Shown here one piece after another: positions 2,780 through 33,261 of a stretch of DNA of 44,022 nucleotides. This DNA is from Chitinophagaceae bacterium (GTDB taxonomy: Bacteria > Bacteroidota > Bacteroidia > Chitinophagales > Chitinophagaceae). The position numbers were made by a program, and so were the translations under genes. The stretch lies in contig CANFLL010000028.1 in assembly GCA_947447825.1 (NCBI GenBank), positions 1-44,022 on the forward strand. The letters run 5' to 3'. Under the pieces are notes generated by a model. The model was not told the DNA's origin, made no database searches, and saw only the letters and a list, made by a program, of their open reading frames with translations. The stretch's first letter is position 1, and every line of letters starts with the position of its first letter.

Positions 2780-5700
2780 ATGCAACTTTTGCTTGCTAAA
2801 CACTTATTTGCCGTGAGAAATTTTCTTCCTTGTTTCATTTTTGTATTATTGGGTATTGCTAGCGCAACCCAAAATATGTTGTATGCACAATCTAGTCTCG
2901 ACAAAACTTTCACCTTCAAAAATACTAATAAGGTGAAACTAAAAGTTCTAATAAATGAAGTACAAAAACAAACACATGTAAACATTTCCTTTAGCTCTAG
3001 CATCATTAATACAGATCAAGTGATTGCTTATAATGCTACAAACAAAAAGGTTGCTGACTTTTTACAAGACTTAGAAAAGAGTTATAAGATAGGCTATCAA
3101 TTGGTGGGAGATAGGATTATCCTCTATAAGATTAACGATAAACCCAAGACTGATAAACTCACGGAAGAAATTAAACTTACGCAAGAGGGAAACGTAATTA
3201 GGGGTGTGGTAAAAAACGAAAAAGGCGAAACCATGCAAGGGGTTACCATCATAGAAAAAGGTAAACCAAATGCAGTAGCTAGTGATGCAAAAGGAGAATT
3301 CAAAATAAAAGTGACCAATAGTAAGGCTAGCTTGGTATTTAGTTTTACGGGTTATGAACCAATAGAAGTTGCTGTTAGTAGCAGTTCTATTGCTAATATT
3401 TCTCTTACTTCCATCTCTAAAGCATTGGACGATGTGGTGGTAGTAGGTTATGGAACAATTAAAAAGAGTGATCTTACTGGTTCTGTTTCTAAGGTAAAAC
3501 TAGAAAATGCTGCTCAACAAACTTCTAGTTCTTTCGAACAATTATTACAAGGAAAAGCGGCGGGCGTAAACATAACGCAAACTTCTGGCGACCCTGGTTC
3601 AGGTATCGTTTTTAACATAAGGGGAACAAATTCATTAGGGGCTAATCAGCCCTTAATTGTTATAGATGGTGTGCCCATTGAGTCGGATAATGCAACAGTG
3701 TCTAGTAAAACAGGTGCTGATTACTGGACAAGCCAAGAACAACCCTCAAATGTTTTGGCTAACCTGAATCCTAACGATATAGAATCTTTAGAAATCTTAA
3801 AAGATGCCTCCTCTACTGCCATCTTTGGTTCCAGAGGAGCTAATGGTGTGGTGATGATTACAACAAAAAGAGGGAAAGCTGGCAGAGATAAAATTTCTTA
3901 TAATTATAGGTATGATGCCTCTCAACTTCCCAAGGAAATTGCCATGCTAACGGGACCACAGTTTGCTCAGTATGCCAATGAAGCTACTTACAACTCCGAT
4001 TCAACCAAAGGACAATTCTTTAGATTTCCGCTAGATACAATTGCTAAATTAGGGACAGTAAACTTTCAGGAAATAATTTTTAATAGGTCTAATTCTCAAG
4101 ATCACCAAGTTTCATTGCTGGGTGGTGACGACAGAACCAAATATGCTTTAGGGGCTTATTACACTACGATTAATGGAGTAGTGGTAAATACGTATTACAA
4201 AAAGCAAGGGCTCTCTTTTAATCTAGATAGACAATTTGCTAAAAATTTTAAAGTAGGTATATCTGCCAAGGTTAATTTCTCGGACAACAGAGCTGGATTA
4301 CAATCTACTAATCATGCTAATCAAGGGGGTTCAGTTGTTACTACTGCACTTCGTTCAACTCCTACCGCTCATTACATTAATGATGATGGAACCATCAATA
4401 CAAGTCTGAGTAATAATCCAGCTTTATTATTAAGCAATTCGGTAAATAAAACAAAGAACATGATGTCTTTGGTTAACATATTTGGAGAGTATAGCATCAT
4501 CCCAAACGATTTAAAGCTTAGGGTAAGTGGTAGTTTCAATCAAAACAATAACCAAAGCAACACTTATTGGGGTAGAGGAACCGTAGCAGGCGATGCTTCT
4601 GGTGGTCAGGCTTTTCAAATTACCAATCAAAACTTAAATTATTTAACGGAGTACACACTTTCATATAATAAAAAAGTGTTTAGAAATGATCGGATCAATG
4701 CAGTAGCTGGCTACACTTCTCAAAGCTGGGAGTCGAGTGCTTTTGGGGTTAATGCCAAAGGATTCCCTAATGATCAATTGGGTGCTTACGGGTTTGAATA
4801 CGCCACTGCTCTGATTAACTTGCCGAAAGCTACTTTGAAAAAATGGAATCTTGAATCCTATTTAGGAAGAATGAACTATACCATGAACGATAAATATTTG
4901 CTTACCTTAACGGGTAGGGTGGATGGTTCGTCTCGTTTAGCACCCAGTCATAAATGGGATTTCTTTCCTTCTGTAGCCCTTGGTTGGAATTTATACAAAG
5001 AAAAATTCTTTAAGCGTTTAGCCTTTGTTTCTAATGCTAAAGTTAGAACCAGCTATGGTTTTTCGGGCAACCAAAATATTCATGTGGGTGCCACAAAAGC
5101 ATTGTTAAGTTCTAATCGTGCAAGCAATGGGGTAGATAGTATTTCAACGGGTGAGGTAATTTCTAGCTTTGAAAACCCTAACCTACATTGGGAGAAAACT
5201 GGTCAATTAGATGTTGGTATCGATTTCGGATTTTTGAATGACAAGTTCCAATTGTCCATTGATTTATACCAAAAAACTACGAATGATTTATTGCTAGATT
5301 TAGCTATCCCTTCCGATAATGGTTTTTCTTCCTATGCTACCAATTTAGGTAAAGTTGAAAATAGAGGTATTGAAATAGAAGCAAATGCACGGTTTTTAAT
5401 AGCCAATAAAGTTCAGTGGAGAATAGCAGGAAACATTGCTTTCAACCAGAATAAAGTGTTGAACCTAGGAGAAAACGGTCAGATTTATGGCGATAATCTA
5501 TTGCCTACTGCCCTCGATCAGTATGGAACCATTGCCCAGCCAGGTTATGCTATCGGTTCTTTTTATGGTTACAAAATAAAAGGCATCTATCAAAACAAAG
5601 CTGAAATTGCTAAAGGGTCTAAAGATCCAGTGAATCCATTGCCTCAGCCCGGCGATTTTAAATATGCTGACCTAAATGGAAACGGAACAATAGGGCCAGA

Positions 5701-6241
5701 GGATAGAACCATCTTAGGCAACCCTAATCCCAAATATACTTTCGGGTTAACCAATACTTTTTCTTACAAAGGCTTCGAGTTGAGTTGCTTTTTAATGGGC
5801 AAGATTGGACAATCGGTGTTGAATTTGAACCGTTTTTATAGTGATGGATTAGTTTATAGTTCTTCTGGAAATTTGCGTCAAGAAGCTTGGTTGGGTCGCT
5901 GGCATGGAGAAGGAACTAGCAACTATTATCCTAGGGCAAAAACAACTGGGTCTTTGTTCGACAAAAGAGTGAGCGACCATTTAGTGGAAGATGGTTCTTT
6001 TATCAGGTTAAAAAATGTTAGCTTATCCTATATTGTAGATACAAAAAAGTGTCGTTACCTAAAGCAATTTAATGCGTTGAAGTTTTTTGTAAATGCCACC
6101 AATTTGTTTGTTATTACTAACTACAAAGGTTTCGATCCTGAAGTAAGCGGTTTCGGACTTACCGCCATCACACAGGGAGTTGATTTTGGTACCATACCCC
6201 AATATAAAACTTATTCTTTGGGCATCAATGTAGGATTGTAA
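2780..6241 (+). CDS. susC: SusC/RagA family TonB-linked outer membrane transducer
   Basis: The 1153-residue protein has a signal peptide (about 1-37, ending LYAQ), an STN secretin/TonB N-terminal domain (about 43-115), a carboxypeptidase-D-like regulatory domain (about 140-210), a TonB-box-like segment DDVVVVGYGT near residue 217, a plug domain (LIVIDGVPIES, LEILKDASSTAIFGSRGANGV) and a long beta-barrel reaching the C-terminus. The STN domain marks it as a signalling SusC working with the FecR/ECF pair upstream. With SusD (47 bp downstream) it imports oligosaccharides across the outer membrane using TonB energy. The substrate cannot be read from the sequence; the neighbouring enzymes suggest rhamnogalacturonan or arabinogalactan fragments. 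Length is typical of the family. Confidence 0.96.
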   Translation: MQLLLAKHLFAVRNFLPCFIFVLLGIASATQNMLYAQSSLDKTFTFKNTNKVKLKVLINEVQKQTHVNISFSSSIINTDQVIAYNATNKKVADFLQDLEKSYKIGYQLVGDRIILYKINDKPKTDKLTEEIKLTQEGNVIRGVVKNEKGETMQGVTIIEKGKPNAVASDAKGEFKIKVTNSKASLVFSFTGYEPIEVAVSSSSIANISLTSISKALDDVVVVGYGTIKKSDLTGSVSKVKLENAAQQTSSSFEQLLQGKAAGVNITQTSGDPGSGIVFNIRGTNSLGANQPLIVIDGVPIESDNATVSSKTGADYWTSQEQPSNVLANLNPNDIESLEILKDASSTAIFGSRGANGVVMITTKRGKAGRDKISYNYRYDASQLPKEIAMLTGPQFAQYANEATYNSDSTKGQFFRFPLDTIAKLGTVNFQEIIFNRSNSQDHQVSLLGGDDRTKYALGAYYTTINGVVVNTYYKKQGLSFNLDRQFAKNFKVGISAKVNFSDNRAGLQSTNHANQGGSVVTTALRSTPTAHYINDDGTINTSLSNNPALLLSNSVNKTKNMMSLVNIFGEYSIIPNDLKLRVSGSFNQNNNQSNTYWGRGTVAGDASGGQAFQITNQNLNYLTEYTLSYNKKVFRNDRINAVAGYTSQSWESSAFGVNAKGFPNDQLGAYGFEYATALINLPKATLKKWNLESYLGRMNYTMNDKYLLTLTGRVDGSSRLAPSHKWDFFPSVALGWNLYKEKFFKRLAFVSNAKVRTSYGFSGNQNIHVGATKALLSSNRASNGVDSISTGEVISSFENPNLHWEKTGQLDVGIDFGFLNDKFQLSIDLYQKTTNDLLLDLAIPSDNGFSSYATNLGKVENRGIEIEANARFLIANKVQWRIAGNIAFNQNKVLNLGENGQIYGDNLLPTALDQYGTIAQPGYAIGSFYGYKIKGIYQNKAEIAKGSKDPVNPLPQPGDFKYADLNGNGTIGPEDRTILGNPNPKYTFGLTNTFSYKGFELSCFLMGKIGQSVLNLNRFYSDGLVYSSSGNLRQEAWLGRWHGEGTSNYYPRAKTTGSLFDKRVSDHLVEDGSFIRLKNVSLSYIVDTKKCRYLKQFNALKFFVNATNLFVITNYKGFDPEVSGFGLTAITQGVDFGTIPQYKTYSLGINVGL

Positions 6242-6288: not shown

Positions 6289-8010
6289 ATGAAAAAAATA
6301 ATAATAAGTGTTCTGTTCTCCATCTTAATCATTTTAGTTGGTTGTAATAAAAAACTCGACGAAACCCTCTACGATACCCAAACATTTGGCAGCATTACAA
6401 CCACGGCAGATGTATTGAAAGTAATTCAAGGAACGTATGGTATTTTGGAGGATGTTTCTTTGTATAAAAAAGAACTGCTTAAATTATTGCTTTTAACAGG
6501 TGATGACTTCACCACCACCTCAAACGAGTATCAACCTTACAGTCAAAAAGTTTATGACCCAACCTCTCCTTCCATTGCACAATCATACCAATCGTATTAT
6601 AGCATCATCAATAATTGCAATTATTTATTGAGTAAAATTCCTTCCATTAAAACTACCTCTGGCACCGACTCCACATTGAAAGCTAGAGAAGAAGGTGAGA
6701 TTCGTTTTTTTAGGGCTTTTGCTTATTTCGATTTGGTAAGGCTTTTTGGTGAAGTACCCATCAGGACGGTGCCTACTAACATTAATACTAACTTTTACAT
6801 AGCCCGCTCTAAGGTTGATTCTGTTTATGCACTAATATTCTCTGACCTTAAAATTGCAGCAACTAATCTTCCCTACAAAAGCACTTTCGATGGCATTGGT
6901 TTTACAAACAAAGGAGCTACTCAAGCCTTGCAATCTTTGGCTTATTTAACTTATGGCAATTATTTAGATAATAATGGTCGAACAGCAAAGGCCGCATTCA
7001 CTACCGCAGATAGTTGTGCCACAGTGGTTATTAAAAGTGGTGGATATAGTTTATTTTCTAACTATGCTGACCTCTGGAATGTAGATAATGAATCTACAGC
7101 TTATGGCACAGAAGTTATATTTGGCATCAGGTTCACCCGCGACAATATTGTTTCGGGTGGTTCGGCTCTTGGTTCTCAACTTCCTCAACTTTTCATGCCT
7201 AGCAATATGGGGGGCGTCACTGGCAATCCTGTTAAAAATGCTTTAGGTGCTTATGGTTCAGGTAGTGGCAACTATCGTGTTCAGCCTTGGTTTTATAATT
7301 ATTGCTTATCTGGCGATTATGTTAATGATTACCGTGGAGATGTTACTTTTATAACCTCTTGGGCAAAAACGCCAGGTTCTGGCACTAAGTATGTCTCTTT
7401 TCCTGCCATTCCATCTACCAAAACAGATACTGTTCCTTTTCAAACACCTTTCATTAAAAAGTACATAGACAGCAAAGGACTTGATGCGGCAAACCACGAA
7501 AATGACTTCTTTTTTCTGCGTTTACCTGAGGTTTATTTGATACGGGCAGAAGCCGAAAATGAAATGTATGCCGGTCCTAGTGGTGCGCCTAATGCTTTGA
7601 AAGATATAAACGTGTTGAGAAAAAGAGCTAGAAATGCCAACTTAATTAGTCCGAGATTAACACCTTTAGATGTGCCATCAGGTCTTTCTCAAAATGATTT
7701 CCGTAAAAAAATATTTGATGAGAGAGGATTGGAATTTATTGGTGAAGGCAAGCGTTGGTTCGATTTAGTTCGTATGAAAGGACCTGATGGTACAGGAACG
7801 ATGTACCAATATCAGTTTAGCGATTATATTCCCAATCAGGTGCCAATTGGATTGCCGGTGTATGATAAAGTTGCTAAAACTTGGAGTGAAGGTTTGATCG
7901 ATGCTACTACTGTTGTGCCTTATGATAGCAAATATTTGCTGTTCCCAATTCCACAAGCTGAACGTGACTTAAACAGTAAATTAACACAGAATAAGGGATG
8001 GGGGCAATAG
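6289..8010 (+). CDS. susD: SusD/RagB family surface glycan-binding lipoprotein
   Basis: The 573-residue protein starts with a lipoprotein signal peptide; the lipobox LVGC places the lipidated Cys at residue 19. The body has the SusD features: an N-terminal TPR-like region (TADVLKVIQGTYGIL, ... RFFRAFAYFDLVRLFGEVP) and the C-terminal signature with LPEVYLIRAEAENEM and GLEFIGEGKRWFDLVRM. It acts as the hinged lid of the SusC transporter at the cell surface. It follows SusC after 47 bp and is surely co-transcribed. The stop codon TAG is followed at once by a heptanucleotide repeat tract, so the core operon may end here. Confidence 0.96.
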   Translation: MKKIIISVLFSILIILVGCNKKLDETLYDTQTFGSITTTADVLKVIQGTYGILEDVSLYKKELLKLLLLTGDDFTTTSNEYQPYSQKVYDPTSPSIAQSYQSYYSIINNCNYLLSKIPSIKTTSGTDSTLKAREEGEIRFFRAFAYFDLVRLFGEVPIRTVPTNINTNFYIARSKVDSVYALIFSDLKIAATNLPYKSTFDGIGFTNKGATQALQSLAYLTYGNYLDNNGRTAKAAFTTADSCATVVIKSGGYSLFSNYADLWNVDNESTAYGTEVIFGIRFTRDNIVSGGSALGSQLPQLFMPSNMGGVTGNPVKNALGAYGSGSGNYRVQPWFYNYCLSGDYVNDYRGDVTFITSWAKTPGSGTKYVSFPAIPSTKTDTVPFQTPFIKKYIDSKGLDAANHENDFFFLRLPEVYLIRAEAENEMYAGPSGAPNALKDINVLRKRARNANLISPRLTPLDVPSGLSQNDFRKKIFDERGLEFIGEGKRWFDLVRMKGPDGTGTMYQYQFSDYIPNQVPIGLPVYDKVAKTWSEGLIDATTVVPYDSKYLLFPIPQAERDLNSKLTQNKGWGQ

Positions 8011-8087
8011 TTGTTAGTTGTTAGTTGTTAGTGATTAGTTGTTAGTTGTTAGTTGTTAGTTGTTAGTGATTAGTGATTAGTGGTTAG
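8011..8087. repeat. Heptanucleotide repeat tract (11 units, TTGTTAG type)
   Basis: Eleven in-phase 7-mers (TTGTTAG, TGATTAG, TGGTTAG) begin at the first base after the SusD stop codon. No interruption of the 7-bp register is seen. Confidence 0.9.
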
Positions 8088-8111
8088 TTTTTTTGCAAAT
8101 AGGATTTAAAC

Positions 8112-8321
8112 TTGAAATAAGGTGTTTCTTTTTTGGAATAAGAGGTTTCTTTTTTGGAATAAGAGGTTTCTTATTTGGAATAAGAGGTCTCTTATTTGGA
8201 ATAAGAGGTCTCATATTTGGAATAAGGTGTTTCTTATTTGGAAAAAGAGGTTTCTTTTTTAGAATAAGAGGTTTCATATTTGGAATAAGGTGTTTCTTAT
8301 TTAGAAAAAGAGGTCTCTTAT
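8112..8321. repeat. 21-bp tandem repeat array (10 units)
   Basis: Exactly ten 21-bp units of the form TTGGAATAAGAGGTTTCTTAT cover this stretch with no length change and a few substitutions per unit. Because 21 is divisible by 3, both strands stay open and give low-complexity reading frames (GIRGFLF heptapeptides on plus, KKPLIPN on minus). These frames look like by-products of the repeat rather than genes. Confidence 0.9.
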
Positions 8322-8377
8322 TTAACGTTCTAAGTTTCATTCCGAATGTCTCATCTGGCGCACCAGAAAAAAATGTG

Positions 8378-8507
8378 AATGACGTGTGGGGCTATGATTT
8401 GGTAACTTTTTGTAAGTTGCCAAATCTAACGGACAGAGACTTGCCACATTTAGATTTACCAACTTCTGAAAAGTTGGCAAATCAGGGACATATAAACCCA
8501 CGTCATT
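8378..8507. repeat. 130-bp imperfect palindrome, MITE/REP-like
   Basis: Outer arms AATGACGTG (8378-8386) and CACGTCATT (8499-8507) enclose inner inverted copies of a GTTGCCAAATCTAA-like sequence (about 8416-8429 and 8450-8463) and two small hairpins (8399-8423 TTGGTAACTT/AAGTTGCCAA; 8459-8477 CCAACTT/AAGTTGG). The nested symmetry resembles a non-autonomous mobile or REP-type element. Confidence 0.6.
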
Positions 8508-8540
8508 GTAAAGAAATGCTGTTGGTTTTGGTGTTGTTGT

Positions 8541-8604
8541 CATTCCGTAGGAATCTATTAGAATGTGTTGAACTCAATGCCTGTAAGAGATTCCTTCGGA
8601 AATA
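8541..8604. repeat. 64-bp inverted repeat of the ATTCCGTAGGAATCT type
   Basis: ATTCCGTAGGAATCT (8542-8556) and AGATTCCTTCGGAAAT (8588-8603) are inverted copies around a 31-base middle. Elements with this ATTCC-TAGGAAT core are common intergenic repeats in Bacteroidota. The hairpin may also end upstream transcripts. It stands about 60 bases before the first beta-helix gene. Confidence 0.5.
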
Positions 8605-8666
8605 CAAATGATTTCCGTTACTAAACACGTCATCGTTAGATTATTGTTCCAACAAAATTGATTCGA

Positions 8667-11198
8667 GTGAACAAATTATATATTTTATTGCTCATTGTTT
8701 TAATCCCTTTTTTAAGTGATGCCCAATCCTTTTTTACTACCCCAATTGCTACTTTCATAGAAAAACCTTCCGAAAAAATAATAGACCTTTCGTTTAATAA
8801 TACACCTGTCGATTCTCTTCAATTAGCCATTAATAATACCCGCTTAAAGTATCCTAGTAACATAATCAGACTAACTGTTTCAGGCAGTTTTCTCATTAAA
8901 AATATGCCAATTACCTTATCAAGTAAGATGTTGCTGATATTGAATTATGCAAAGGTTTTGGCGGATAATAATACCACTGCCACTTCCTTAATAGCCGTTC
9001 CAAACGATACAATGGTGTCCATTTTTGCAGTAGGCACAGCCATTTTGGATGGGGGGAATCATACTATCATTGGCATCAACGCAACAACCTCTGGCAAAAT
9101 CCATATTGACGGATTAACCATTCAGAACTGTAAAAAAGGAGGTGTTTACTATGTTGGTCGTGGGGCAAATGTGTATGCAGATGCTGGCTCAGTAACTCGT
9201 TGCACCATTGCCAACTGTGGTGCGGTAGGCATTTCATTCAATAATGCGTTCAATTTTGTCTGCACTGATAACAGTATTAAAAACGCCACATTGGGCATTC
9301 ATGTTAATGGAAATTATGCAGCTATCACAAACAACACGATTATCAAATGCACCACTGGATTAGAGTCTGTTTCGCAATTTGAAGCCATCACTTTTAATAC
9401 CGTTGATAGCTGCACAACAGGCATCAATTTGACTACCGCCTCTACCGAAACCCTCGTTTCTTATAATAAAATTCGTAGTAACACCATCGGTTTATTAATC
9501 AATAGTACAAAGGATAGAATCTATTATAACGACTGTAAAAACACGGCAAACGTGGCGGGTAGTGGAAGCAATAACTACCTTTTTGGCAATTTGGGCGTAA
9601 ATAAAATTGATGGAAGCAATAGTGGTTGCATATATTTTAATCCCCCAACTATCGGCTATCAGCATAATAATGTGGTGAAGTTTGGGATGGGAAGGCAAGA
9701 CATTACCATTAAAGACACCACCCTGAAATCAGTAAGGAGTATCGTTGATAAATTTCATAATTTATACCCAACAGATGTGTTGGTTATTCATTTAAATGGA
9801 ACTTTCACCACTACTTCTGCTTCCGATTCTTTACTAGTTCTCGATGATGAATGTTATTTATTGAAAGGCAGCATCAATGGAAAAGATTCTTGTGGCACGG
9901 TACTCTATTTTGGGAGTGGCATAACCTCTTCATTTTCTGGAGGCACTATTGATTGTAATGGAATTGATGGTAAAAACGCAGCCCTATTTATTACTGGAAC
10001 TGCCAACGTAATTCTGGATAGCATTACGCTTCTTAATACCGCATCGCAGGGAATTACGAAAAGAAACAGCTTTTCTCCAACATATATCAGGGCATGCACC
10101 GTAAACAATTGTAACGGAAGATGTATATGGGAAGTAGCGGGTAGTAGGCTTTTTGCGGTGGGCAACACTGTTTTGAATGGTGTGAAAGATGGAATTGACC
10201 TCGATGCGTTTTCATCAAATTCTGTTGTAATGAACAACTATGCATCAGGAAATCAGCGCAATGGGGTGTTTATAGAAGAAGGGGCAAATCTGCACATTGT
10301 ACAGGGAAATACGCTTACAGGGAATGCCTACATAGGAATCCAGTTTTATAATTTAGAAGTAGGTAACCAATATTCTTCTAAATGCTTGGTGGCAGAAAAT
10401 GTTTGTACCAACAACAATAGGGGGATTTCAGTAAGTGCTTTATCGGCTGATAGAGCAACCATCGATAACAATATCTTCAACAATGTTTGCACTAATAATA
10501 CCGATGTTGGTATTGGTGGTTTTTATAATGGCACAACTACATACAATAATTACACAGCCTTGAATCTACTTCAAAACAATACTAATGGTTCGTTTTATAG
10601 CAAGGCAAATTTTACTAATAACTATGTTTGGAATATGCTTGCCAACCCCAAGTTGTTACCTATTAATTTCATTTCATTCAATGGAAAAGAAGTAGGGGAT
10701 GCCATTCAGCTTAATTGGGGAATTGCTTCTACTGATAATATTGTTCTATGTCAAATAGAAAGGTCAAATGATGGAATGAGTTTTTATAAGATTGGAGAAG
10801 TTGCTTCATCGGTAAAGGATACTTACGTTTATCTTGATGCTAATCCTTTCATTGGCAATAATTACTACAGAATAAAAGCCATCCGAATTGATGGGAAAGT
10901 TACTTATTCTACAATAGAAGGTTTTACGGTTAATCCATCAAACAATATTAAAGTAAAATGTTTTCAACCTACGAATCAGTTGTTGAGTGTAACAATAGTA
11001 GATAATGAAGTTTTTAATAGGGTTGAAATACAACTGTATGATTTGAAAGGAAAAAGAATTTGTGGTGCTGAATACAACAACCTTCATTCGTTGCAATTCA
11101 GTAAAACAATTCAACTTCCTTCGGTTAGTAAAGGCGTATATATTCTTTCCGTAAAAACGGATAAGGGTAGTGTTGCAAAGGAAGTTATACTTAAATAA
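8667..11198 (+). CDS. Secreted double beta-helix protein with T9SS tail (paralog 1)
   Basis: About 843 residues from GTG at 8667; an in-frame TTG at 8658 would add three and residue numbers here count from it. A signal peptide (ending SDAQ) is followed by two right-handed beta-helix halves (about 25-330 and 335-655) that align with each other: a strand-turn opening (IIRLTVSGSF / VLVIHLNGTF), then ILDGGN / TIDCNG, then Asn-rich coils. The second half carries an acidic patch shared by all three paralogs: DGIDLDAF (Asp511, 514, 516) and GVFIEEGA (Glu540, 541), which may be catalytic. Then come a beta-sandwich domain (about 665-760) and a T9SS type-A sorting domain ending KGVYILSVKTDKG. Beta-helix folds include polysaccharide lyases and GH28-type enzymes, but no known family signature was recognised, so the reaction is open. 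Two paralogs follow in tandem. Confidence 0.85.
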   Translation: MNKLYILLLIVLIPFLSDAQSFFTTPIATFIEKPSEKIIDLSFNNTPVDSLQLAINNTRLKYPSNIIRLTVSGSFLIKNMPITLSSKMLLILNYAKVLADNNTTATSLIAVPNDTMVSIFAVGTAILDGGNHTIIGINATTSGKIHIDGLTIQNCKKGGVYYVGRGANVYADAGSVTRCTIANCGAVGISFNNAFNFVCTDNSIKNATLGIHVNGNYAAITNNTIIKCTTGLESVSQFEAITFNTVDSCTTGINLTTASTETLVSYNKIRSNTIGLLINSTKDRIYYNDCKNTANVAGSGSNNYLFGNLGVNKIDGSNSGCIYFNPPTIGYQHNNVVKFGMGRQDITIKDTTLKSVRSIVDKFHNLYPTDVLVIHLNGTFTTTSASDSLLVLDDECYLLKGSINGKDSCGTVLYFGSGITSSFSGGTIDCNGIDGKNAALFITGTANVILDSITLLNTASQGITKRNSFSPTYIRACTVNNCNGRCIWEVAGSRLFAVGNTVLNGVKDGIDLDAFSSNSVVMNNYASGNQRNGVFIEEGANLHIVQGNTLTGNAYIGIQFYNLEVGNQYSSKCLVAENVCTNNNRGISVSALSADRATIDNNIFNNVCTNNTDVGIGGFYNGTTTYNNYTALNLLQNNTNGSFYSKANFTNNYVWNMLANPKLLPINFISFNGKEVGDAIQLNWGIASTDNIVLCQIERSNDGMSFYKIGEVASSVKDTYVYLDANPFIGNNYYRIKAIRIDGKVTYSTIEGFTVNPSNNIKVKCFQPTNQLLSVTIVDNEVFNRVEIQLYDLKGKRICGAEYNNLHSLQFSKTIQLPSVSKGVYILSVKTDKGSVAKEVILK

Positions 11199-11379
11199 GA
11201 TGCAGGTTGCATGTTACAGGATGCAGGTTGCCGGTTTCCAGTTTCCAGTTTCAAGTACCTGTAACCTGTAACCAGTTACTAGTAACCAGTAACTAGTAAC
11301 CAGTAACCAGTAACCAGTAACCTGTTACTAGTAACCAGTAACCAGTAACCAGTAACCTGTAACTTGTAACCGGTAACCA
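11199..11379. repeat. Heptanucleotide repeat tract (about 26 units, GTAACCA type)
   Basis: 7-mers begin at the first base after the stop codon: GATGCAG, GTTGCAT, GTTTCCA and related units to 11254, a single 6-base unit, then seventeen uninterrupted GTAACCA/GTAACCT/GTTACTA units from 11261 to 11379. The tract nearly fills the gap between beta-helix paralogs 1 and 2. Confidence 0.92.
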
Positions 11380-11391
11380 CATAAATAAACA

Positions 11392-13932
11392 ATGATGATA
11401 AAAAAGTTATTAGTAGTAGGAGTTTCGCTGTTGCCCTTATTGGGCTTTTCACAAAGTATTTATAAGCTGCCCAAAATGTCATTCATTCAAAAGGCAGGGG
11501 AAACCGTGACTGATATTGAAATTAAGAATAAGTCGATTGAGGAAGTACAAGCTGCTATAGATAAAGCCCATAGCCAAAGCGACATATTGAGGGTAACACT
11601 TACTGGCAGTTTTACGGTTACTAAAGCACCGCTGAAATTGGCAAACAAAACAATACTATTCCTAAATAATGCAACCATCAAAGCAGGAAATGATGCCACA
11701 GCCCATGTGTTATTATCTATAGAAGATGCTCAGTATATTTCTATCAGTTCTACTGGTGGTGGGGTTTTGGATGGTAATAATAAAAAGATTACGGCTATTG
11801 GTGTTGGTAATGCTGGTAAGACCCACATTGATAACTTAACCATTAAAGGTTGTAAGGATGGAGGTTTAGTTTACTTTGGAAGAGGAATGAAGGAGTATGC
11901 AGATGCAGGTTCCATTACTCGATGCGCCATCAAGGATTGTGGTGAAGTAGGCATCACCATCGAGAATTCATTCAACTTTATTTGTGAGGATAATGAAATA
12001 ACAAATGCAATCAGGGGCATCTACCTAAATGCAGATAATGCAGCTATCGTAAATAATAGAATAAGCTTTTGCAAAACTGGCATCAGGTCTTTAGCCCAAT
12101 ATGATGCCATTGCCTACAATAGTGTTTCCAACTGTGGCACGGCAGTTCAGTTGGATAGTACTTGCTTGGAAACCTTTGTTGGGAATAATATTGTGAAGAA
12201 TAATGGTGTAGGCTTCAACCTGAATAGTATTAAAGCTAGGGTTTACAACAACGACTGCGATAACCGTATTGAGGTTTTGGGTAAAGGTTCTGCAAATCAA
12301 TTGTATGCCAATAAAGGTATCTCCATTACAGAAGGAAACAATGAAGGCTGCGATTATTTCAATCCGCCATTGTTGGGCAATATGCACAACGACCTCATCA
12401 AACTTGGCATTGGAAGGTGGGACATTACCATAAAAGATACTCTATTAAAAGATGTTAGATCCATCATCGATAAAGCACATAAGGCACATGTAAACGATAT
12501 TTTGGTGGTGCATTTAAACGGTACATTCACTACTTCTGGCGAAACTGATTCGCTGAAAGTGTTGGATAATGAGTGTATCCTACTAAATGGAATTATCAAT
12601 GGCACGGGGAGTGTAGGCAAATTAGTTTGCTTTCAAGGTAGCATCACGTCCTCTTTTTCTGGTGGTACCATTGATGGAAACGGTACAAATGGCGATGCTT
12701 CCTTGGTGTACATTACAGGTGCAGCCAACGTTATTTTGGATAGTGTACGGGTAATTAATAGTAAGCACCAAGGCATCACCAAACGAAATAGCCATTCGCC
12801 TACATACATAAGAGGTTGCACCGTGGAATTTGGCAGTAGAGGCATCTGGCAATTGGCTGCCGACAGGTTATTTGCCTTTGAAAACAGGGCTACAAAGGGT
12901 TTGATGGATGGGATAGACTTAGATGCTTACACCACTAACTCTGTAGTGATGAATAATTACAGTTGCAACAATAGAAGGCATGGGGTATTTATTGAGGAAG
13001 GTGCAAATGGACATATTGTGCTAAACAACACCCTCGATAGCAATAGCACAGGTGTTGCATTCTTTAACTTAGAAGTAAATAATAAACACAGTTCTCGTAA
13101 CCTAGTGGCTAATAATCTTTGCCGTTGGAACAATCGTGGCATTCAGGTAAATGCAGCTAGTGAAGAAAAATCAACTAGAGATAATACGATGTTTAATAAT
13201 GTTTGCACCAACAACCTTGATGCAGGTATTGGTGGTTATTATGGTGGACCAAAAACGACCAACAATTACAATGCAATGAATGTGGTAAGCAATAATGCCA
13301 TAGGTTCTTTTTCGGATAGGGTTAAAATGGAAGATAATACTGTTTGGAACTGTCTTGCTTCCAATACTACGCTACCTGCAGAGCTTACTGCGGTGGTAGC
13401 CAAAGCAACGTCCAATGGAATTACATTAAATTGGGGAACACTTGCTGAAAACCAAGCAAAAAGTTTTGAAGTAGAACGCTCGTTAACCATGAACAAATAT
13501 GCTACGGTGGCAACAGTAAAAGCGGCAGGAATGTCTACATCTAAACAGAAATATTCTTTTACAGATTCTACGGCACCAAGGGGGATTGTGTTCTACAAAA
13601 TAAAGACTGTTGATACTAAAGGAAACGTCTATTATTCAAACATCATCCCGGTAGAAAACAGGGTAGATACTGCTTTCGATATTCAATTTACTAACCTAAA
13701 GAATTGGTCGTTTCAAGTAAATGTAAATGCAAAGAAAAGTTTCAATGCCATCAATATTCAGTTGTTCGATCTTAATGGGACGCAGTTGTATAAAGAAGAT
13801 TTTACTACTAATGGTGCTACAGACTTTATGCAAGTAATTAAAGTACCCAACATTCTAACGGGCACTTACATCCTTTATGGAAAGACTGCCTTTGGCGACT
13901 GTATGAAGAAGGTGTATATATCGAGGTACTAG
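11392..13932 (+). CDS. Secreted double beta-helix protein with T9SS tail (paralog 2)
   Basis: The 846-residue protein repeats the architecture of its upstream neighbour: signal peptide (ending LLGFSQ), first beta-helix half (about 25-330, with GVLDGNN and YADAGSITRC motifs), second half (about 335-655, with GTIDGNG, DGIDLDAY and GVFIEEGA), a beta-sandwich domain starting near residue 660 (LPAELTAVV, ITLNWGT, FEVERS) and a C-terminal domain ending TGTYILYGKTAFGD, read as a T9SS sorting domain. The three paralogs are clearly related over the helix parts but diverged, so the duplication is not recent. Expected location is the cell surface. It may bind or cleave a plant polysaccharide; this rests on fold and neighbourhood only. 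Confidence 0.85.
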   Translation: MMIKKLLVVGVSLLPLLGFSQSIYKLPKMSFIQKAGETVTDIEIKNKSIEEVQAAIDKAHSQSDILRVTLTGSFTVTKAPLKLANKTILFLNNATIKAGNDATAHVLLSIEDAQYISISSTGGGVLDGNNKKITAIGVGNAGKTHIDNLTIKGCKDGGLVYFGRGMKEYADAGSITRCAIKDCGEVGITIENSFNFICEDNEITNAIRGIYLNADNAAIVNNRISFCKTGIRSLAQYDAIAYNSVSNCGTAVQLDSTCLETFVGNNIVKNNGVGFNLNSIKARVYNNDCDNRIEVLGKGSANQLYANKGISITEGNNEGCDYFNPPLLGNMHNDLIKLGIGRWDITIKDTLLKDVRSIIDKAHKAHVNDILVVHLNGTFTTSGETDSLKVLDNECILLNGIINGTGSVGKLVCFQGSITSSFSGGTIDGNGTNGDASLVYITGAANVILDSVRVINSKHQGITKRNSHSPTYIRGCTVEFGSRGIWQLAADRLFAFENRATKGLMDGIDLDAYTTNSVVMNNYSCNNRRHGVFIEEGANGHIVLNNTLDSNSTGVAFFNLEVNNKHSSRNLVANNLCRWNNRGIQVNAASEEKSTRDNTMFNNVCTNNLDAGIGGYYGGPKTTNNYNAMNVVSNNAIGSFSDRVKMEDNTVWNCLASNTTLPAELTAVVAKATSNGITLNWGTLAENQAKSFEVERSLTMNKYATVATVKAAGMSTSKQKYSFTDSTAPRGIVFYKIKTVDTKGNVYYSNIIPVENRVDTAFDIQFTNLKNWSFQVNVNAKKSFNAINIQLFDLNGTQLYKEDFTTNGATDFMQVIKVPNILTGTYILYGKTAFGDCMKKVYISRY

Positions 13933-14002
13933 GTTTTAAGTCGTAAGTCGTAAGTCGTAAGTTGAAAGTCGTAAGTCAAAAGTTGAAAGTGATTAGTTAG
14001 AA
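13933..14002. repeat. Heptanucleotide repeat tract (10 units, GTCGTAA type)
   Basis: Ten 7-mers (GTTTTAA, GTCGTAA, GTTGAAA, GTCAAAA, GTGATTA, GTTAGAA) begin directly after the TAG stop of beta-helix paralog 2. Unit sequence differs from the tracts at 8011 and 11199 but the period is the same. Confidence 0.88.
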
Positions 14003-14093
14003 TTTAGATAAATATTAAACTACTTGTTTTCACAGAAGTGAATAGCAAATAATTAAAATCCAAAATTCAAAACAAACAAATAAAGATTGCGCA

Positions 14094-16070
14094 ATGAAGA
14101 GACAAATTGTTTGGATAGTATATTTCTTTCTGCCCATATTTATTTATGGGCAGACGCTATTTACGCCACCCACTATGGGTTTTATTCATAGCCCTTCAGA
14201 AGCAATTACTAACCTGTCTTTCAATAGCACCTCTCTGAGTTCAGTACAATCGGCTATTGACGATGCAAGAAATACTTACCCCAATAACATCCTTCGCATT
14301 ACTCTTTCTGGCACGTTCACGGTAGCCGAAGTTCCTTTAAAATTGAGTAACTACACTTTATTGTTCTTGAATAATGCAACCATCCTAGCCAACAATTCCA
14401 CAACCGCTACTGCTATGATAAGTGTAAGTAATGCCCAATATGTAAGCATTGGTTCTACTGGAGGTGGGTTGTTAGATGGAAATAATGCTAACCTAAAAGC
14501 CATCGAAATCAATACTTGTGGTAAGACGCACATCGATAACCTAACGATTAAAAACTGTACCAATGGAGGCGTTTCCTATAGTGGAAATGGGCAAAGTGTT
14601 TATGCAGATGCAGGTTCTGTTACGCGTTGCAATATCTCTAATTGTACCACCTATGCCATTGCCTACAGAAATGTATTCCATTTTGTTTGCACAGATAATA
14701 CCCTTCAGAGTAATGGTATTGGCATTGCCATCAATGGTAATAATTCGGTAGTTGCCAATAATACTATTACCCAATGTACTACGGGTATTGTTGATAGCTC
14801 GCAATATGAAGCCATTACCTATAATTCTATTACTAATTGCACAACAGGTATTAACCTAGTAGGAACATCGCTAGAAACTTTTGTTTCTCATAATACCATC
14901 AATACAAACAATGCAGGATTAACAGTAAATAGTACCAAGGCACGCATTTACTACAATAACTGCAATAACACAACCGAGGTGCAGGGCGGAGGTACAAACA
15001 ATCAGTTGTTTTGCAACATCGGTATCACTTCCGCGGAGGGCAATGTTTCTGGATGTAGCTATTTTAATCCACCGCTAAAAAGCAATATGCACAATGACCT
15101 TATCAAAATTGGGAAGGGAAGGTATGATATTAATATTGGCTCCCTCAGTTTAGGAATGTTACGTTGTGTGATGGATATGATTCATGGTAGTCAGCCCAAT
15201 GCGGTAATTGTTGCCCATCTGAGTGGCACTTTTACCGCAGAAAGCAGTACCGATTCTTTTCTGGTTAAAGAAGATGAATGCATCCTTCTCAACGGCACTT
15301 TCAATGGAAATGTAAGTTGTGGCACAATGGTAAACTTTAGCGGTAGCCTTACTTCTTCGTTTTCTGGGGGAACCATCGACGGACAAACTACTAATGGTAC
15401 AAAAGGATTGGTTTACATTGCTGGTTCAGCCAATGCTGTTTTAGATGCCGTTTTCATTTCTAATAGTGCCACTCAGGGGATATTTAAACAAAATAGTACA
15501 GTTCCTACCTACATACAGGGTTGTACCCTAAGTAATTGTGGCTTTAGAGGAATATGGAGTCTTGCTTCTAGCCGTTTGTATGCATTAGAAAACAATGTTT
15601 CTTCTAGTGTAAAAGACGGGATAGACTTAGATGCATTTAGTACTAAAGCCATTTTAATTAAAAACACATGCAACAATAATAAGCGCAATGGCGTGTTTAT
15701 AGAAGAAGGGGCAAGTGGACATTTAGTAATGGCAAATACGTTAAATAGTAATGCTACAGCAGGTGTTGAGTTGTATAATCTGAATGTAGATAATGCCAAT
15801 TCCTCACAAAACTTGTTGGTATATAATAGTTGTTCATCCAACAACCGTGGAATAATGCTAAATGCGGCGGCAGCTACTAAGGCAACCATAAATAATACTT
15901 TGTTTAATAATACTTGTTCGAATAATATGGATGTTGGGGTGGGTGGATACTACAATGCCACCAATACTTACAACAACTATAACGCATTTATGAACATACA
16001 GAATAACACAAACGGCTCCTATTATTCTGCTAGAGATTACACATTGAATTACGATTGGAATATGTATTAA
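14094..16070 (+). CDS. Secreted double beta-helix protein lacking T9SS tail (paralog 3)
   Basis: The 658-residue protein has a signal peptide (ending FIYGQ) and both beta-helix halves of the two upstream paralogs, including ILAN..., GGLLDGNN, YADAGSVTRC in the first half and GGTIDGQ, DGIDLDAF and GVFIEEGA in the second. It stops at DWNMY, exactly where the others continue (VWNML / VWNCL) into the beta-sandwich and T9SS sorting domain. It therefore should reach the periplasm by Sec but has no visible signal for T9SS export. Either this is a periplasmic version of the same activity or the tail was lost. A stop and only 43 bases separate it from the SGNH gene, with no leftover tail coding seen in that gap. 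Likely co-transcribed with the SGNH hydrolase. Confidence 0.85.
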   Translation: MKRQIVWIVYFFLPIFIYGQTLFTPPTMGFIHSPSEAITNLSFNSTSLSSVQSAIDDARNTYPNNILRITLSGTFTVAEVPLKLSNYTLLFLNNATILANNSTTATAMISVSNAQYVSIGSTGGGLLDGNNANLKAIEINTCGKTHIDNLTIKNCTNGGVSYSGNGQSVYADAGSVTRCNISNCTTYAIAYRNVFHFVCTDNTLQSNGIGIAINGNNSVVANNTITQCTTGIVDSSQYEAITYNSITNCTTGINLVGTSLETFVSHNTINTNNAGLTVNSTKARIYYNNCNNTTEVQGGGTNNQLFCNIGITSAEGNVSGCSYFNPPLKSNMHNDLIKIGKGRYDINIGSLSLGMLRCVMDMIHGSQPNAVIVAHLSGTFTAESSTDSFLVKEDECILLNGTFNGNVSCGTMVNFSGSLTSSFSGGTIDGQTTNGTKGLVYIAGSANAVLDAVFISNSATQGIFKQNSTVPTYIQGCTLSNCGFRGIWSLASSRLYALENNVSSSVKDGIDLDAFSTKAILIKNTCNNNKRNGVFIEEGASGHLVMANTLNSNATAGVELYNLNVDNANSSQNLLVYNSCSSNNRGIMLNAAAATKATINNTLFNNTCSNNMDVGVGGYYNATNTYNNYNAFMNIQNNTNGSYYSARDYTLNYDWNMY

Positions 16071-16113: not shown

Positions 16114-17340
16114 ATGATGAAAAGTCTTCGTTTACTTGCCTTTTTACTGCTGTTTTCCTTTGGGGTAAAAGCGCAAGTTGTAAGAACGTTTTTAGATAGA
16201 ACGGTAAAGGAAGGTTTTCTATCTATCAGCTTTGAGGTTCAAACTCCTACTAAAAAGGATTCCATTTATTGGTTCTATTTGAATGGGTTGAATGGGAAAA
16301 AGGTAGTACGACTTTCTTTAAATCCTGATGGAACATTGGGGTTATATGCTGGGGGCAAGCAATTTTTAGCACCCACTAAGCCCAAGCATAACTACCTGAT
16401 TAGTATTGGTGTCGATTTCGACAAAAAGCAAGTGCAAGCCATGTATGGTGCCGATTCTGCCAATATGATCAATTGGACAGATGCAGAACTTACTTATGAT
16501 GATTATGCTGCTACCGAGGCTTCACTTATTCAGACGGTTGGTTTGCCATTAAAAAATCTTAAAGTAAAACTGCCTGAAACAACGATAACCAAGAAGGAAG
16601 ATATTTGGAATGGACTCAAAGAATGGGAAATTGCTAAGTATAAGTCTTGGGTAGCCACTTTGCCCGAAGATCAGTTTGAATGGGAAATGTTGTTACAGCA
16701 ACACCTTGGCTCTTTCTATTTTCCTCACTATGTAAGAGATAGGAATAAAGGCAAATATTCTTTGACAGAACCTGGTGATTGGGGCTTTGTGCAGGATGAA
16801 CTTTCGTTGGCTCGTATTCTTTTGATAGGCGATTCTATTTCACGCAGTTATACTGATTCCACGCGTAAAAGGTTAGTGGGGGTTGCCAATGTGCATCGTG
16901 CACCTGCCAATTGTGGTCCTGCTACTGCTGGGGTTAAATATTTGGATAGTTGGCTTGGTAAGAAACCTTGGGATATCATAACGTTCAATTTTGGTATCCA
17001 TGATTCAAAGAATTCTATGGCTACCTATAGGGCAAATTTGCAAAAGGTGGTAGAAAGATTAAAGGCTACAAAGGCTTCGCTTATCTGGATAAGAACAACC
17101 CCTTTGTACGATAAAGAAACAGGAATTGATAAAACTGCAGAAGTGAACCGTATTGCAGATTCCATGATGCAGTCTAATCATATACGTATTTGTGATGTTG
17201 CAGGAGCTGTAATGAAAGACACTGCATATAAAAGCTATTATTTAGATGGCGTACATTTCAACAACAAAGGAATCTCCTTAATGGCTGAGGCCGTTGCTAA
17301 ATCACTCAAAGAAGCATTGGAGGAAAAGAAAAAGAAATAG
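16114..17340 (+). CDS. Secreted SGNH/GDSL hydrolase, probable glycan esterase
   Basis: The 408-residue protein has a signal peptide (about 1-21, ending VKAQ), a beta-rich N-terminal domain (about 25-150) that may bind sugar, and a C-terminal SGNH hydrolase domain. Visible blocks are LLIGDSIS with nucleophile Ser241, a Gly in NCGPAT, FNFGIHD at about residue 295 in the position of the Asn block, and DGVHFNNKG with Asp378 and His381. This triad suits a carbohydrate esterase removing acetyl or similar groups, as rhamnogalacturonan acetylesterases do. It follows beta-helix paralog 3 after 43 bp and probably shares its transcript, which hints that the beta-helix substrate is an esterified polysaccharide. 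Ester type is unknown. Confidence 0.85.
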   Translation: MMKSLRLLAFLLLFSFGVKAQVVRTFLDRTVKEGFLSISFEVQTPTKKDSIYWFYLNGLNGKKVVRLSLNPDGTLGLYAGGKQFLAPTKPKHNYLISIGVDFDKKQVQAMYGADSANMINWTDAELTYDDYAATEASLIQTVGLPLKNLKVKLPETTITKKEDIWNGLKEWEIAKYKSWVATLPEDQFEWEMLLQQHLGSFYFPHYVRDRNKGKYSLTEPGDWGFVQDELSLARILLIGDSISRSYTDSTRKRLVGVANVHRAPANCGPATAGVKYLDSWLGKKPWDIITFNFGIHDSKNSMATYRANLQKVVERLKATKASLIWIRTTPLYDKETGIDKTAEVNRIADSMMQSNHIRICDVAGAVMKDTAYKSYYLDGVHFNNKGISLMAEAVAKSLKEALEEKKKK

Positions 17341-18541: not shown

Positions 18542-18913
18542 ATGAATGTTGTCTCTTTTTTTGCGGGTGCTGGCGGTCTCGATTTAGGCTTCGAAAATGC
18601 AGGATTCAATGTTCGATGGGCGAATGAATACGATAAAGACATCTGGGAAACATACGAAAAAAACCATACTAAATCTAAACTTGATCGTAGAAGCATCGTT
18701 AATATACCTTCAAGTGAGGTTCCAGATTGTGATGGCATTATCGGTGGGCCTCCTTGTCAAAGTTGGAGTGAGGCTGGGTCTAAAAGAGGTATTACTGATA
18801 AGCGAGGTCAATTATTTTATGAGTTTATGCGGATTCTTGCAGATAAAAAGCCGAAGTTCTTTCTTGCAGAAAATGTATCTGGGATGCTTTTACCAGCACA
18901 CAAAACAAATTAA
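18542..18913 (+). pseudogene. HaeIII-type C5-cytosine methyltransferase, N-terminal remnant
   Basis: The 123 residues match the start of C5-cytosine DNA methyltransferases of the M.HaeIII (GGCC) type: motif [13 protein letters not shown] (6-17, SAM binding), motif [15 protein letters not shown] with catalytic Cys72, and motif VI ENV (110-112). From memory M.HaeIII shares [21 protein letters not shown] and FFLAENV almost word for word. The family runs to about 330 residues; this frame stops after HKTN, losing motifs VIII-X and the target recognition domain, so it cannot methylate alone. The next gene starts three bases after the stop. The endonuclease partner downstream is also truncated, at its other end, as expected from one replacement event. 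It could be mistaken for a short intact gene. Confidence 0.88.
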
Positions 18914-18916
18914 AAT

Positions 18917-19156
18917 ATGAATTCAATAACTTTTCAATCTACAAAGTACAAATCAAGAGAAATACAATTATCTGCTTTTGGGGATGTATTAATTTCCACT
19001 ACTACGCTTAACAGGAATTTATTTGATAAAAATGATTGTTATGTTAATGATGAGGCGTGTGTTATTGATGAGCAAATATTCTATTTTGTAGAAGAAAATG
19101 AAATAACCTTACCTGAAAAGTCGTTAAAGAAGCTGTTACTTAAACAAATAAAATGA
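18917..19156 (+). CDS. Small hypothetical protein, first gene of a coupled pair
   Basis: The 79-residue product was not recognised. It is mixed alpha/beta, rather acidic in the C-terminal half (VEENEITLPEK), with no signal peptide or membrane span. It starts three bases after the stop of the methyltransferase remnant and its stop overlaps the next start (ATGA at 19153-19156), so the two are translationally coupled. The tight pair between two halves of a wrecked restriction-modification locus suggests a small cassette, possibly for defence or toxin-antitoxin use, but no motif proves this. Confidence 0.6.
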   Translation: MNSITFQSTKYKSREIQLSAFGDVLISTTTLNRNLFDKNDCYVNDEACVIDEQIFYFVEENEITLPEKSLKKLLLKQIK

Positions 19157-19659
19157 TTACTTACCAATTTTTCCCAAGATCTCAAGGAATTACCAAAGAA
19201 ATACAATCTGTAATTTCTTGTTTTCAATTAGAATACAATAAAATAAAATCACCTGATTTTAATCTTTCAAGTAATGAAGTATTAGAAACAATCCGACCTC
19301 ACCTCGAAGAGATTGGATTTGTGTGTGAAACTGGTAAATCGAAGGATCAGAAAATAAGTGTTCCAGTTTTATTTGGGTTTGATAATAGAATTGACAAGGC
19401 ATTTAATGCTGATGCAGTAAGTGCTGATGGAAAAATCGTTATTGAAATTGAAGCGGGCAGGGCAACAGAAAACAATCAATTCCTTAAAGATGTATTTCAA
19501 GCTTGTATGATGTTTGAAGTAGAGTATCTTGTGATTGTTGTAAGAAAGGTCTATCGTAAGCATAAAGATTTTGAAATCATACATACCTTCTTGGAAACTC
19601 TTTATATATCAAATCGTCTTCATCTACCCCTCAAAGGGATTCTTCTAATAGGCTATTAA
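19153..19659 (+). CDS. Probable PD-(D/E)XK-fold nuclease-like protein
   Basis: The 168-residue protein has an N-terminal helical part and a core with Asp87 (NADAVS), then a beta strand KIVIEIEAGRA giving Glu98-Ile-Glu100. This Asp-x10-Glu-x-Glu spacing fits the PD-(D/E)XK nuclease fold, with Glu in place of the usual Lys, as occurs in some type II restriction enzymes. After it follow a helix (FLKDVFQACMMF) and a strand EYLVIVVRK, also typical of the fold, and the end LPLKGILLIGY. No precise family could be named. It overlaps the 79-aa gene by four bases. Context within a dead HaeIII-type locus supports a link to DNA cutting; this is inference. Confidence 0.55.
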   Translation: MITYQFFPRSQGITKEIQSVISCFQLEYNKIKSPDFNLSSNEVLETIRPHLEEIGFVCETGKSKDQKISVPVLFGFDNRIDKAFNADAVSADGKIVIEIEAGRATENNQFLKDVFQACMMFEVEYLVIVVRKVYRKHKDFEIIHTFLETLYISNRLHLPLKGILLIGY

Positions 19660-19664
19660 ATGAT

Positions 19665-19755
19665 GGGAGCGTAAGGGATTGCAGTGAAAATCCTTTTTGC
19701 TGCCCTGAGCAAAAAGATTGTAACGAAAAGCCCGACCCGAAGGGATACGCCCAAA
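19665..19755. repeat. REP-like palindromic element at the restriction-locus junction
   Basis: GCGTA (19669-19673) and TACGC (19746-19750) bracket a hairpin CTTTTTGCT / AGCAAAAAG (19693-19701 and 19708-19716) around GCCCTG. The GAGCG...AAGGGATTG...CCCGACCC layout resembles an intergenic element frequent in Bacteroidota genomes. It sits exactly between the inserted gene pair and the decapitated endonuclease frame. Confidence 0.55.
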
Positions 19756-19758
19756 TAA

Positions 19759-22755: not shown

Positions 22756-22775
22756 CTTGTACTCCATAAGCTTCT
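22756..22775 (+). promoter_or_regulatory. Candidate promoter/operator shared with FecR gene
   Basis: CTTGTACTCCATAAGCTTCT matches the 20-mer before FecR at 1558-1577 at 16 of 20 positions. It lies 35 bases before the GH29 start chosen here. It may tie the fucosidase to the same control as the PUL core; this is inference. Confidence 0.35.
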
Positions 22776-22810
22776 TTCAAATGTATAACTATTTACATTC
22801 CCACGCACAT

Positions 22811-33212: not shown

Positions 33213-33261
33213 GTTGAAAGTCAAAAGTCAAAAGTGAAAAGTCAAAAGTGAAAAGTGAAAA
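33213..33261. repeat. Heptanucleotide repeat tract (7 units, GTCAAAA type)
   Basis: Seven in-phase 7-mers (GTTGAAA, GTCAAAA, GTGAAAA) follow the terminator, the same period as the tracts nearer the beta-helix genes. Confidence 0.88.

Follow-up and report, generated by a model that had tools for sequence, protein, structure and literature searches.

The window analysed here, a stretch of 44,022 nucleotides (positions 1 to 44,022 of contig CANFLL010000028.1, assembly GCA_947447825.1) from a Chitinophagaceae bacterium, carries three tandem genes of a twin beta-helix family, which probably encode polysaccharide-degrading enzymes. The three genes are open reading frames (ORFs) on the same strand (Table 1), in agreement with a preliminary description that had named three tandem double beta-helix proteins, and copies 2 and 3 share 45% and 51% identity with copy 1, respectively. 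Copy 1 starts with a TTG at 8658, the start at 8667 given in that description being an in-frame GTG three codons further on, and its N-terminus looks like a signal peptide by eye. Pfam matches at or above cut-off in the paralogs are limited to Beta_helix and NosD, found in all three copies, and the type IX secretion system (T9SS) tail of copy 1. Among NCBIfam models, the T9SS type A tail is over cut-off in copy 1 only (TIGR04183, 34.3 vs 23 bits), and the remaining matches, including NosD, AlgG and a beta-helix repeat, are sub-threshold; copy 2 has a T9SS-like tail under the curated cut-off (13.7 vs 23 bits), and neither Pfam nor NCBIfam profiles find a T9SS tail in copy 3. Its orthologs in the related loci L025 and L027 (L025c and L027) stop at the same place as copy 3 and likewise lack the tail. 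No further full copy is present in the window's own genome, where the other 77 of the 80 matches are confined to query residues 575-846, largely in the tail.

Table 1. Features of the twin beta-helix locus in the window. Motif and residue numbers refer to copy 1; PB1, parallel beta-sheet 1; T1, turn 1; C-half, C-terminal half; aa, amino acids; L024 and L025, related loci.
Feature	Position	Strand	Basis and remarks
Extracytoplasmic function (ECF)-type sigma factor	955-1545	+	Pfam
FecR protein	1623-2711	+	Pfam
SusC-type TonB-dependent receptor	2780-6241	+	Pfam Plug, TonB barrel
SusD-type protein	6289-8010	+	Pfam SusD_RagB 123.6 bits
Copy 1 of twin beta-helix family	8658-11198	+	846 aa; Pfam Beta_helix 67.6 bits, Por_Secre_tail 34.8 bits
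Copy 1, N-terminal beta-helix half	8724-9650	+	alignment
Copy 1, motif ADAGSVTR (residues 174-181)	9177-9200	+	most conserved 8-residue stretch of the family
Copy 1, C-terminal beta-helix half	9684-10646	+	alignment
Copy 1, motif DGIDLDA (from D511)	10188-10208	+	PB1/T1 of C-half rung 4
Copy 1, motif GVFIEEGA (with E540/E541)	10263-10286	+	PB1/T1 of C-half rung 5
Copy 2 of twin beta-helix family	11392-13932	+	846 aa; ORF call
Copy 2, N-terminal beta-helix half	11452-12372	+	alignment
Copy 2, motif ADAGSITR	11899-11922	+	
Copy 2, C-terminal beta-helix half	12406-13362	+	alignment
Copy 2, motif DGIDLDA	12907-12927	+	
Copy 2, motif GVFIEEGA	12982-13005	+	
Copy 3 of twin beta-helix family	14094-16070	+	658 aa; stops at second helix
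Copy 3, N-terminal beta-helix half	14151-15077	+	alignment
Copy 3, C-terminal beta-helix half	15111-16067	+	alignment
Copy 3, motif DGIDLDA	15615-15635	+	
Copy 3, motif GVFIEEGA	15690-15713	+	
SGNH/GDSL esterase-like protein	16114-17340	+	Pfam Lipase_GDSL_2 41.9 bits; SGNH also beside helix genes in L025
GH29 alpha-L-fucosidase-like protein	22757-24535	+	Pfam; 82% identity (BLASTP) to GH29 of L024

Each protein consists of two homologous halves, as a profile of the N-terminal half (N-half, 17 rows) aligns with one of the C-half (16 rows) over 249 columns at 18% identity (hhalign 98%, E 1.8e-13). An AlphaFold2 model of copy 2 residues 20-665, built with 13 of the 17 family rows, has a predicted local distance difference test score (pLDDT) of 86.7 and a predicted template modelling score (pTM) of 0.89, and contains an N-cap helix and a beta-helix once per half; the copy 2 C-half modelled alone with 12 rows reached a pLDDT of 88.3 and a pTM of 0.89. 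The secondary structure of the model was used to assign seven C-half rungs, each of about 24 residues. When the two halves are aligned, the strands bearing the C-half acids pair with N-half strands that have no conserved acids. The stretch YADAGS(V/I)TR of the N-half is, in turn, without counterpart in the C-half.

The family alignment comprised 17 rows, including the three window copies, ten from loci L024-L029 and four from genome G011. A 188-residue fragment (L034/L121, genome G009) was excluded from all family alignments, L026b, which ends at a contig end, was kept out of the full-length and C-half profiles, its positions beyond that end counting as missing in the conservation ranking, and L038 was represented by 1185 residues of an open frame of 1389. 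The motifs DGIDLDA(F/Y) and GVFIEEGA, previously noted in all three copies, are indeed identical in the window copies. In all 17 rows, D454, K468, W491, D511, G512, D516, A517, R534, E541 and G542 (copy-1 numbering) are invariant, while D514 is replaced by Asn and E540 by Gln in L042 only. The N-half also holds the invariant residues K147, H149 and D175. When 8-residue stretches were ranked over 12 non-redundant rows (32-78% identity), ADAGSITR of the N-half came first (0.961), followed by SFSGGTID (0.930), GVFIEEGA (0.915) and DGIDLDAY (0.895). The acidic motifs, therefore, stand out from their surroundings as proposed earlier, yet they are not unique, and the best conserved stretch of the family had been missed.

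In the model, four of the six invariant charged residues within the seven C-half rungs flank PB1 of two adjacent rungs, D511 and D516 in rung 4 and R534 and E541 in rung 5; of the other two, K468 lies on the PB1 strand of rung 2 and D454 on PB2. The reading that we tentatively prefer, without regarding it as established or even probable, is that of a secreted twin beta-helix family in a polysaccharide utilization locus, with a cleft on the C-half PB1 face and hydrolysis by carboxylates. The cleft is read from the rung register of a predicted fold, and we infer catalysis, hydrolysis over elimination, substrate and localisation. The C-terminal helix would most likely be the catalytic half, its PB1 face forming a substrate cleft lined by K468 on rung 2, D511, D514 and D516 on rung 4, and R534, E540 and E541 on rung 5. 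Two carboxylates on neighbouring rungs, such as D514 or D516 together with E540 or E541, might serve as acid and base for the hydrolysis of glycosidic bonds in a fucose- and galactose-bearing polysaccharide, while the N-terminal helix, without these acids, would probably lengthen the binding surface. Proteins that bear a T9SS tail would function extracellularly, and copy 3 would be periplasmic; with no tail on copy 3 or on its orthologs (L025c and L027), a set of one periplasmic protein and one or two exported ones is suggested. If catalytic, the proteins would found a new carbohydrate-active enzyme (CAZyme) family with an internally duplicated helix, in which one half has a putative active site and the other is a built-in acid-free control. 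The locus is a candidate for breaking down a polysaccharide with fucose and galactose residues in this lineage of Chitinophagaceae.

In addition to the grouping of D511, D516, R534 and E541 on two adjacent rungs and the placement of K468 on PB1, the preferred reading is supported by the C-half fold, which is nearest to AlgG, AlgE4 and AlgE6 and also has GH28 and GH87 enzymes in its list of 50 matches, by SusC/SusD directly upstream in five of eight loci, by purifying selection, and by the presence of GH95, GH29, melibiase, GH31 and SGNH genes at such loci. Moreover, the 16 rows with a SusC/SusD or glycosidase gene in the examined flank all keep the five acids D511, D514, D516, E540 and E541, while L042, with none among its 10 flanking ORFs of at least 150 aa, carries both D514N and E540Q. 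The joint replacement in a copy outside a glycan locus fits the loss of an acid/base pair, as a single case.

A number of observations weigh against this hydrolase reading. The L042 argument is based on one sequence, and ADAGSITR in the N-half outranks both acidic motifs. Five of the six invariant charges lie on PB1, T1 or turn 3 (T3), which is no enrichment (P 0.39) because charged residues generally favour that side, with 25 of the 36 charged positions of the copy 2 rungs located there; in addition, 15 of the 21 invariant charged residues are outside these rungs, six in the N-half and nine in the C-half linker and N-cap. Whether the acids share one groove or are scattered on turns had been posed earlier as a decisive point, and the model answers it only in part: it places them together on neighbouring rungs, but a location on the PB1 side is no more frequent than expected. 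The invariant Lys and Arg beside the acids suit a lyase as well, and a GH88-type gene in L029 and a PL4 gene in the window point to elimination chemistry in such loci. GH28 enzymes have a catalytic set formed by an Asp on one rung, a DD pair on the next, GHG and RIK. In two hhalign alignments, the GH28 DD pair falls on R534-N535 of the family, of which the Arg is invariant and the second residue variable, in a register uncertain by at least one rung. The register against AlgG is likewise unsettled, as described below.

It is possible, although rather unlikely, that the family is a polysaccharide lyase or resembles C5-epimerases, with a uronic acid residue as its target; the invariant Lys or Arg would then be the base or charge neutraliser, and Asp and Glu would bind Ca2+ or flank the uronate. 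In Foldseek searches with the C-half alone, AlgG took ranks 1-3 and AlgE4 and AlgE6 ranks 4, 5 and 7 among 50 listed matches (query template modelling score, TM, 0.59-0.73), ahead of matches that included phage tailspikes, GH87 and GH28; AlgE4 (2pyg) superposes with TM 0.73/0.63, a root-mean-square deviation (rmsd) of 4.6 and 16% identity, and AlgG (4nk6) has a Foldseek E of 4e-8. AlgG is also the best PDB profile match, at a marginal E of 0.012, and NCBIfam AlgG weakly matches copy 3 (E 0.0017, 17.1 bits) and two copy 3 relatives, but these scores are 17.1-19.3 bits against a cut-off of 700. The profile match is moreover unspecific, because the acid-free N-half has AlgG as its top PDB match too (E 0.12) and the C-half alone reaches only E 0.09. 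Overall, the Pfam, NCBIfam and PDB profiles returned generic beta-helix, T9SS-tail and marginal AlgG matches only. The GH88-type and SGNH genes beside L029 would suit an enzyme of this kind. In alginate C5-epimerase, roles are ascribed to the catalytic His of a DPHD motif and to a preceding Tyr (PMC4444821). DPHD occurs in none of the 17 family rows, and the family further differs from AlgG and AlgE in the second homologous helix fused in front and in its occurrence in SusC/SusD loci. In one hhalign run (29%, E 5.8e-4), DGIDLDA falls on YGLDPHD of four Rhizobium proteins resembling AlgG, with DLDA in the place of DPHD, but the family then has Asp both at the position of the DPHD His and at that of the Tyr located three residues ahead of the motif. 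HMMER and profile Smith-Waterman alignments prefer other registers; the latter gave scores of 38.0, 37.8 and 28.2, the DPHD register being third, and the maximum of 100 shuffles was 27.7. In each register, the acidic rungs would lie on the DPHD-type active-site strand or its neighbours.

Surface glycan-binding proteins are often encoded directly after SusC/SusD, the position of the helix genes, and a non-catalytic protein of this type is an unlikely explanation: the twin helices would form a long groove, in which the acids hold Ca2+ or sugar hydroxyls. Several unequal paralogs would suit related ligands, and the acidic patch does not include ADAGSITR, the stretch with the highest conservation. 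However, copy 3 and its orthologs lack the T9SS tail, and four invariant charges on two adjacent rungs would look like a local site rather than a groove-wide surface. It is improbable that the acids are structural, capping turns or stabilising rungs through Ca2+, with an active site elsewhere, such as between the helices at ADAGS/H149, since the N-half of the same fold does without conserved acids at the equivalent strands, even though the top rank of ADAGSITR, the invariant K147, H149 and D175, the unenriched PB1-side placement and the tolerance of D514N and E540Q in one copy agree with such a role.

The hydrolase reading was also compared with GH28, for which the preliminary description had recognised no signature; the catalytic residues are indeed absent and PF00295 is not among the Pfam matches with E up to 1 in the three copies, but the C-half fold is close to GH28 as well as to AlgG/AlgE. 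The C-half is a right-handed beta-helix of similar length to GH28 (TM 0.69/0.66 to 1k5c) and resembles clan GH-N (TM 0.71/0.59 to 7b7a), and two hhalign runs align its DGID segment with NTDGxD of GH28. In contrast, GDD/QDD is found in 0 of 17 rows and GHG in 1 of 17, and R.K strings are missing from copy 3 and six other rows. A PF00295 set made of 18 of 20 loci (L087 unused, L102 dropped for length) reached hhalign 6% with the N-half (score 29.6) and 16% with the C-half (33.6), which exceeds 20 column shuffles (maxima 23.1 and 22.2) and reversed profiles (16.2 and 14.8), respectively. Because unrelated beta-helix proteins, represented by six from the window's own genome, score as high or higher (up to 34.5 with the N-half and 38.0 with the C-half), this is a fold-class signal, and GH28 membership was rejected. 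A first mixed set with eight PF12708 loci had given 91% and 59% for the N- and C-half, but this set was not clean, its first row (L059) being unconfirmed as GH28. Carboxylate catalysis is shared by GH28, GH49, GH87 and GH110 according to PMC7939477, which gives D321, D344 and D345 as the GH110 pattern of clan GH-N. A hydrolase family on a GH28/AlgE-type helix with the carboxylates moved to the T1 end of PB1, in which the duplicated acid-free helix binds substrate, is a highly doubtful version of the hydrolase reading; here D516 followed by E540/E541 on the next rung would mimic the clan GH-N order of one Asp and then two adjacent acids, a spacing that any two stacked residues share.

With the full two-helix model, GH55 and PL6 were best by Foldseek E-value, yet with TM of 0.21-0.32 and rmsd of 20-27. 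GH55 proteins have two tandem beta-helices in one chain, and 5m5z was the top match (E 5.5e-10), but its TM of 0.28/0.25 and rmsd of 21.8, together with hhalign 0.7% to three GH55-like proteins (taken as two PF12708 matches in one ORF, unconfirmed as GH55), led to the rejection of GH55 membership. PL6 enzymes of the AlyGC type, beta-helix enzymes of similar length (8bwk, Foldseek E 2.3e-8), were rejected as well (TM 0.23/0.21, hhalign 0.6% against 10 PF14592 loci, and no PF14592 match in Pfam with E up to 1). Although Pfam NosD (PF05048) and Beta_helix are over cut-off in all three copies, the curated NosD_copper_fam model scores at best 22 of 300 bits in the window and up to 28.2 of 300 in relatives. 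The highest TM of the full model among 50 rows per library was to the predicted Sylvanvirus beta-helix protein A0A3G5ALH6 (0.47/0.52, rmsd 9.2, 16% identity), a comparison of two predictions that indicates fold likeness only. Among viral structures (BFVD), the full model was matched best by giant-virus-named beta-helix proteins, namely A0A3G5ALH6, A0A3G4ZS37 and A0A3G5A3K7.

No curated CAZyme family model of Pfam or NCBIfam reached its cut-off in the window copies or their relatives, and no close PDB relative emerged, in line with the earlier remark that no GH28, PL1, PL9 or GH141 signature was recognised. Searches of open-licence PMC papers for the motifs, tandem beta-helix proteins and such loci or enzymes brought up no description of the family (CAZy itself was not searchable), and the only motif-string matches among those listed were to "yadags", apparently inside other words. 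The proteins apparently form a new family of known fold, whose relatives may be among the unclassified beta-helix entries of CAZy, and a known trade, that of polysaccharide-active proteins, is probable for it.

Directly upstream of the first helix gene, SusC/SusD occur in five of the eight loci whose sequence extends 2.7 kb or more beyond it: SusC and SusD are both Pfam-supported in the window, L025, L026 and L119, while in L121 SusD is supported by profile and the partial gene before it has no Pfam match. The pair is not adjacent upstream in L027 (GH95 upstream), L029 (melibiase upstream) and L120 (neither), and in L028 it lies downstream of the helix gene. The 15 kb of L042 contain 10 other ORFs of at least 150 aa and no SusC, SusD or glycosidase match. 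L120 (G011:C194:1-15000) has a solitary family copy with DGINLDAF and IQEGA beside a Sir2 gene, with putAbiC and an amidase further off. The genes had been placed between SusD and an esterase, which holds for the upstream SusC/SusD and the downstream SGNH gene, but a 172-aa repeat-rich ORF (8093-8611) intervenes before copy 1. This ORF, unmatched in both Pfam and NCBIfam, looks spurious; ten copies of a 21-bp repeat (8112-8323) account for 212 of its 519 bases.

GH95 adjoins the helix genes in L024 and L027, follows the SGNH gene in L025 and lies about 7 kb upstream in L029, while L024 has GH95 and then GH29, the latter being the second gene after the helix pair. L029 also contains GH31 (best PDB match 4xpo, listed as alpha-glucosidase), melibiase, SGNH and GH88-type genes. 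The SGNH protein of the window had no informative PDB match. The earlier label of a pectin/arabinogalactan-type locus is weak, since the recurrent neighbours are GH95 (L024, L025, L027 and L029) and GH29 (window and L024), and the PL4 and GH43 genes of the window are 20-27 kb downstream of copy 3, past a restriction-modification remnant; weighing xyloglucan, pectin and arabinogalactan from the neighbours allowed no choice of substrate. The remnant (18542-20583) consists of a HaeIII-type restriction endonuclease and a short C5-methylase ORF (123 aa) between the SGNH esterase and GH29 genes. In L024, the helix genes, GH95 and GH29 are consecutive, without such a remnant.

The family is narrow. 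Full-length relatives were found in six of the 13 genomes of the window's genus, one genome having a contig-end fragment only; the family sample gave matches in three of 294 genomes, all of the window's genus (E 1e-5), and the phylum sample in one of 395, the own genome (E 1e-20), a count that the C-half by itself reproduced (E 1e-6). Scoring in these searches was limited to the few best first-look candidates of each genome. A scan of genome contigs with two N-half patterns, which C-half-only relatives would escape, detected six loci in four genomes, three of them already in the genus sample and the fourth a metagenome-assembled genome titled uncultured Bacteroidales, with two copies; the 393 genomes of its order gave no match besides itself (E 1e-6). 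No relatives were found on plasmids (E 1e-5), in 62 pattern stretches of viral contigs or, for all three copies, in PHROGs (E 0.001). In the tree, orthologs of copies 1, 2 and 3 form separate supported groups across species, and the three paralogs therefore predate those species. The ratios of nonsynonymous to synonymous substitution rates (dN/dS) of five ortholog pairs were 0.191, 0.235, 0.071, 0.091 and 0.175, and the family is under purifying selection.

The window also encodes a 2669-aa repeat-rich protein (24763-32772) that matches TIG, fn3 and, weakly, a T9SS tail; over 635 positions it shares 43% identity with the protein that follows GH29 in L024. As well, intergenic tandem arrays of 7-bp units are present at 8008-8089, 11257-11379, 13937-13990 and 33217-33261, one in each gap before copies 1, 2 and 3, and their units (TAGTTGT, ACCAGTA, AAGTCGA and AAAGTCA) differ from array to array.

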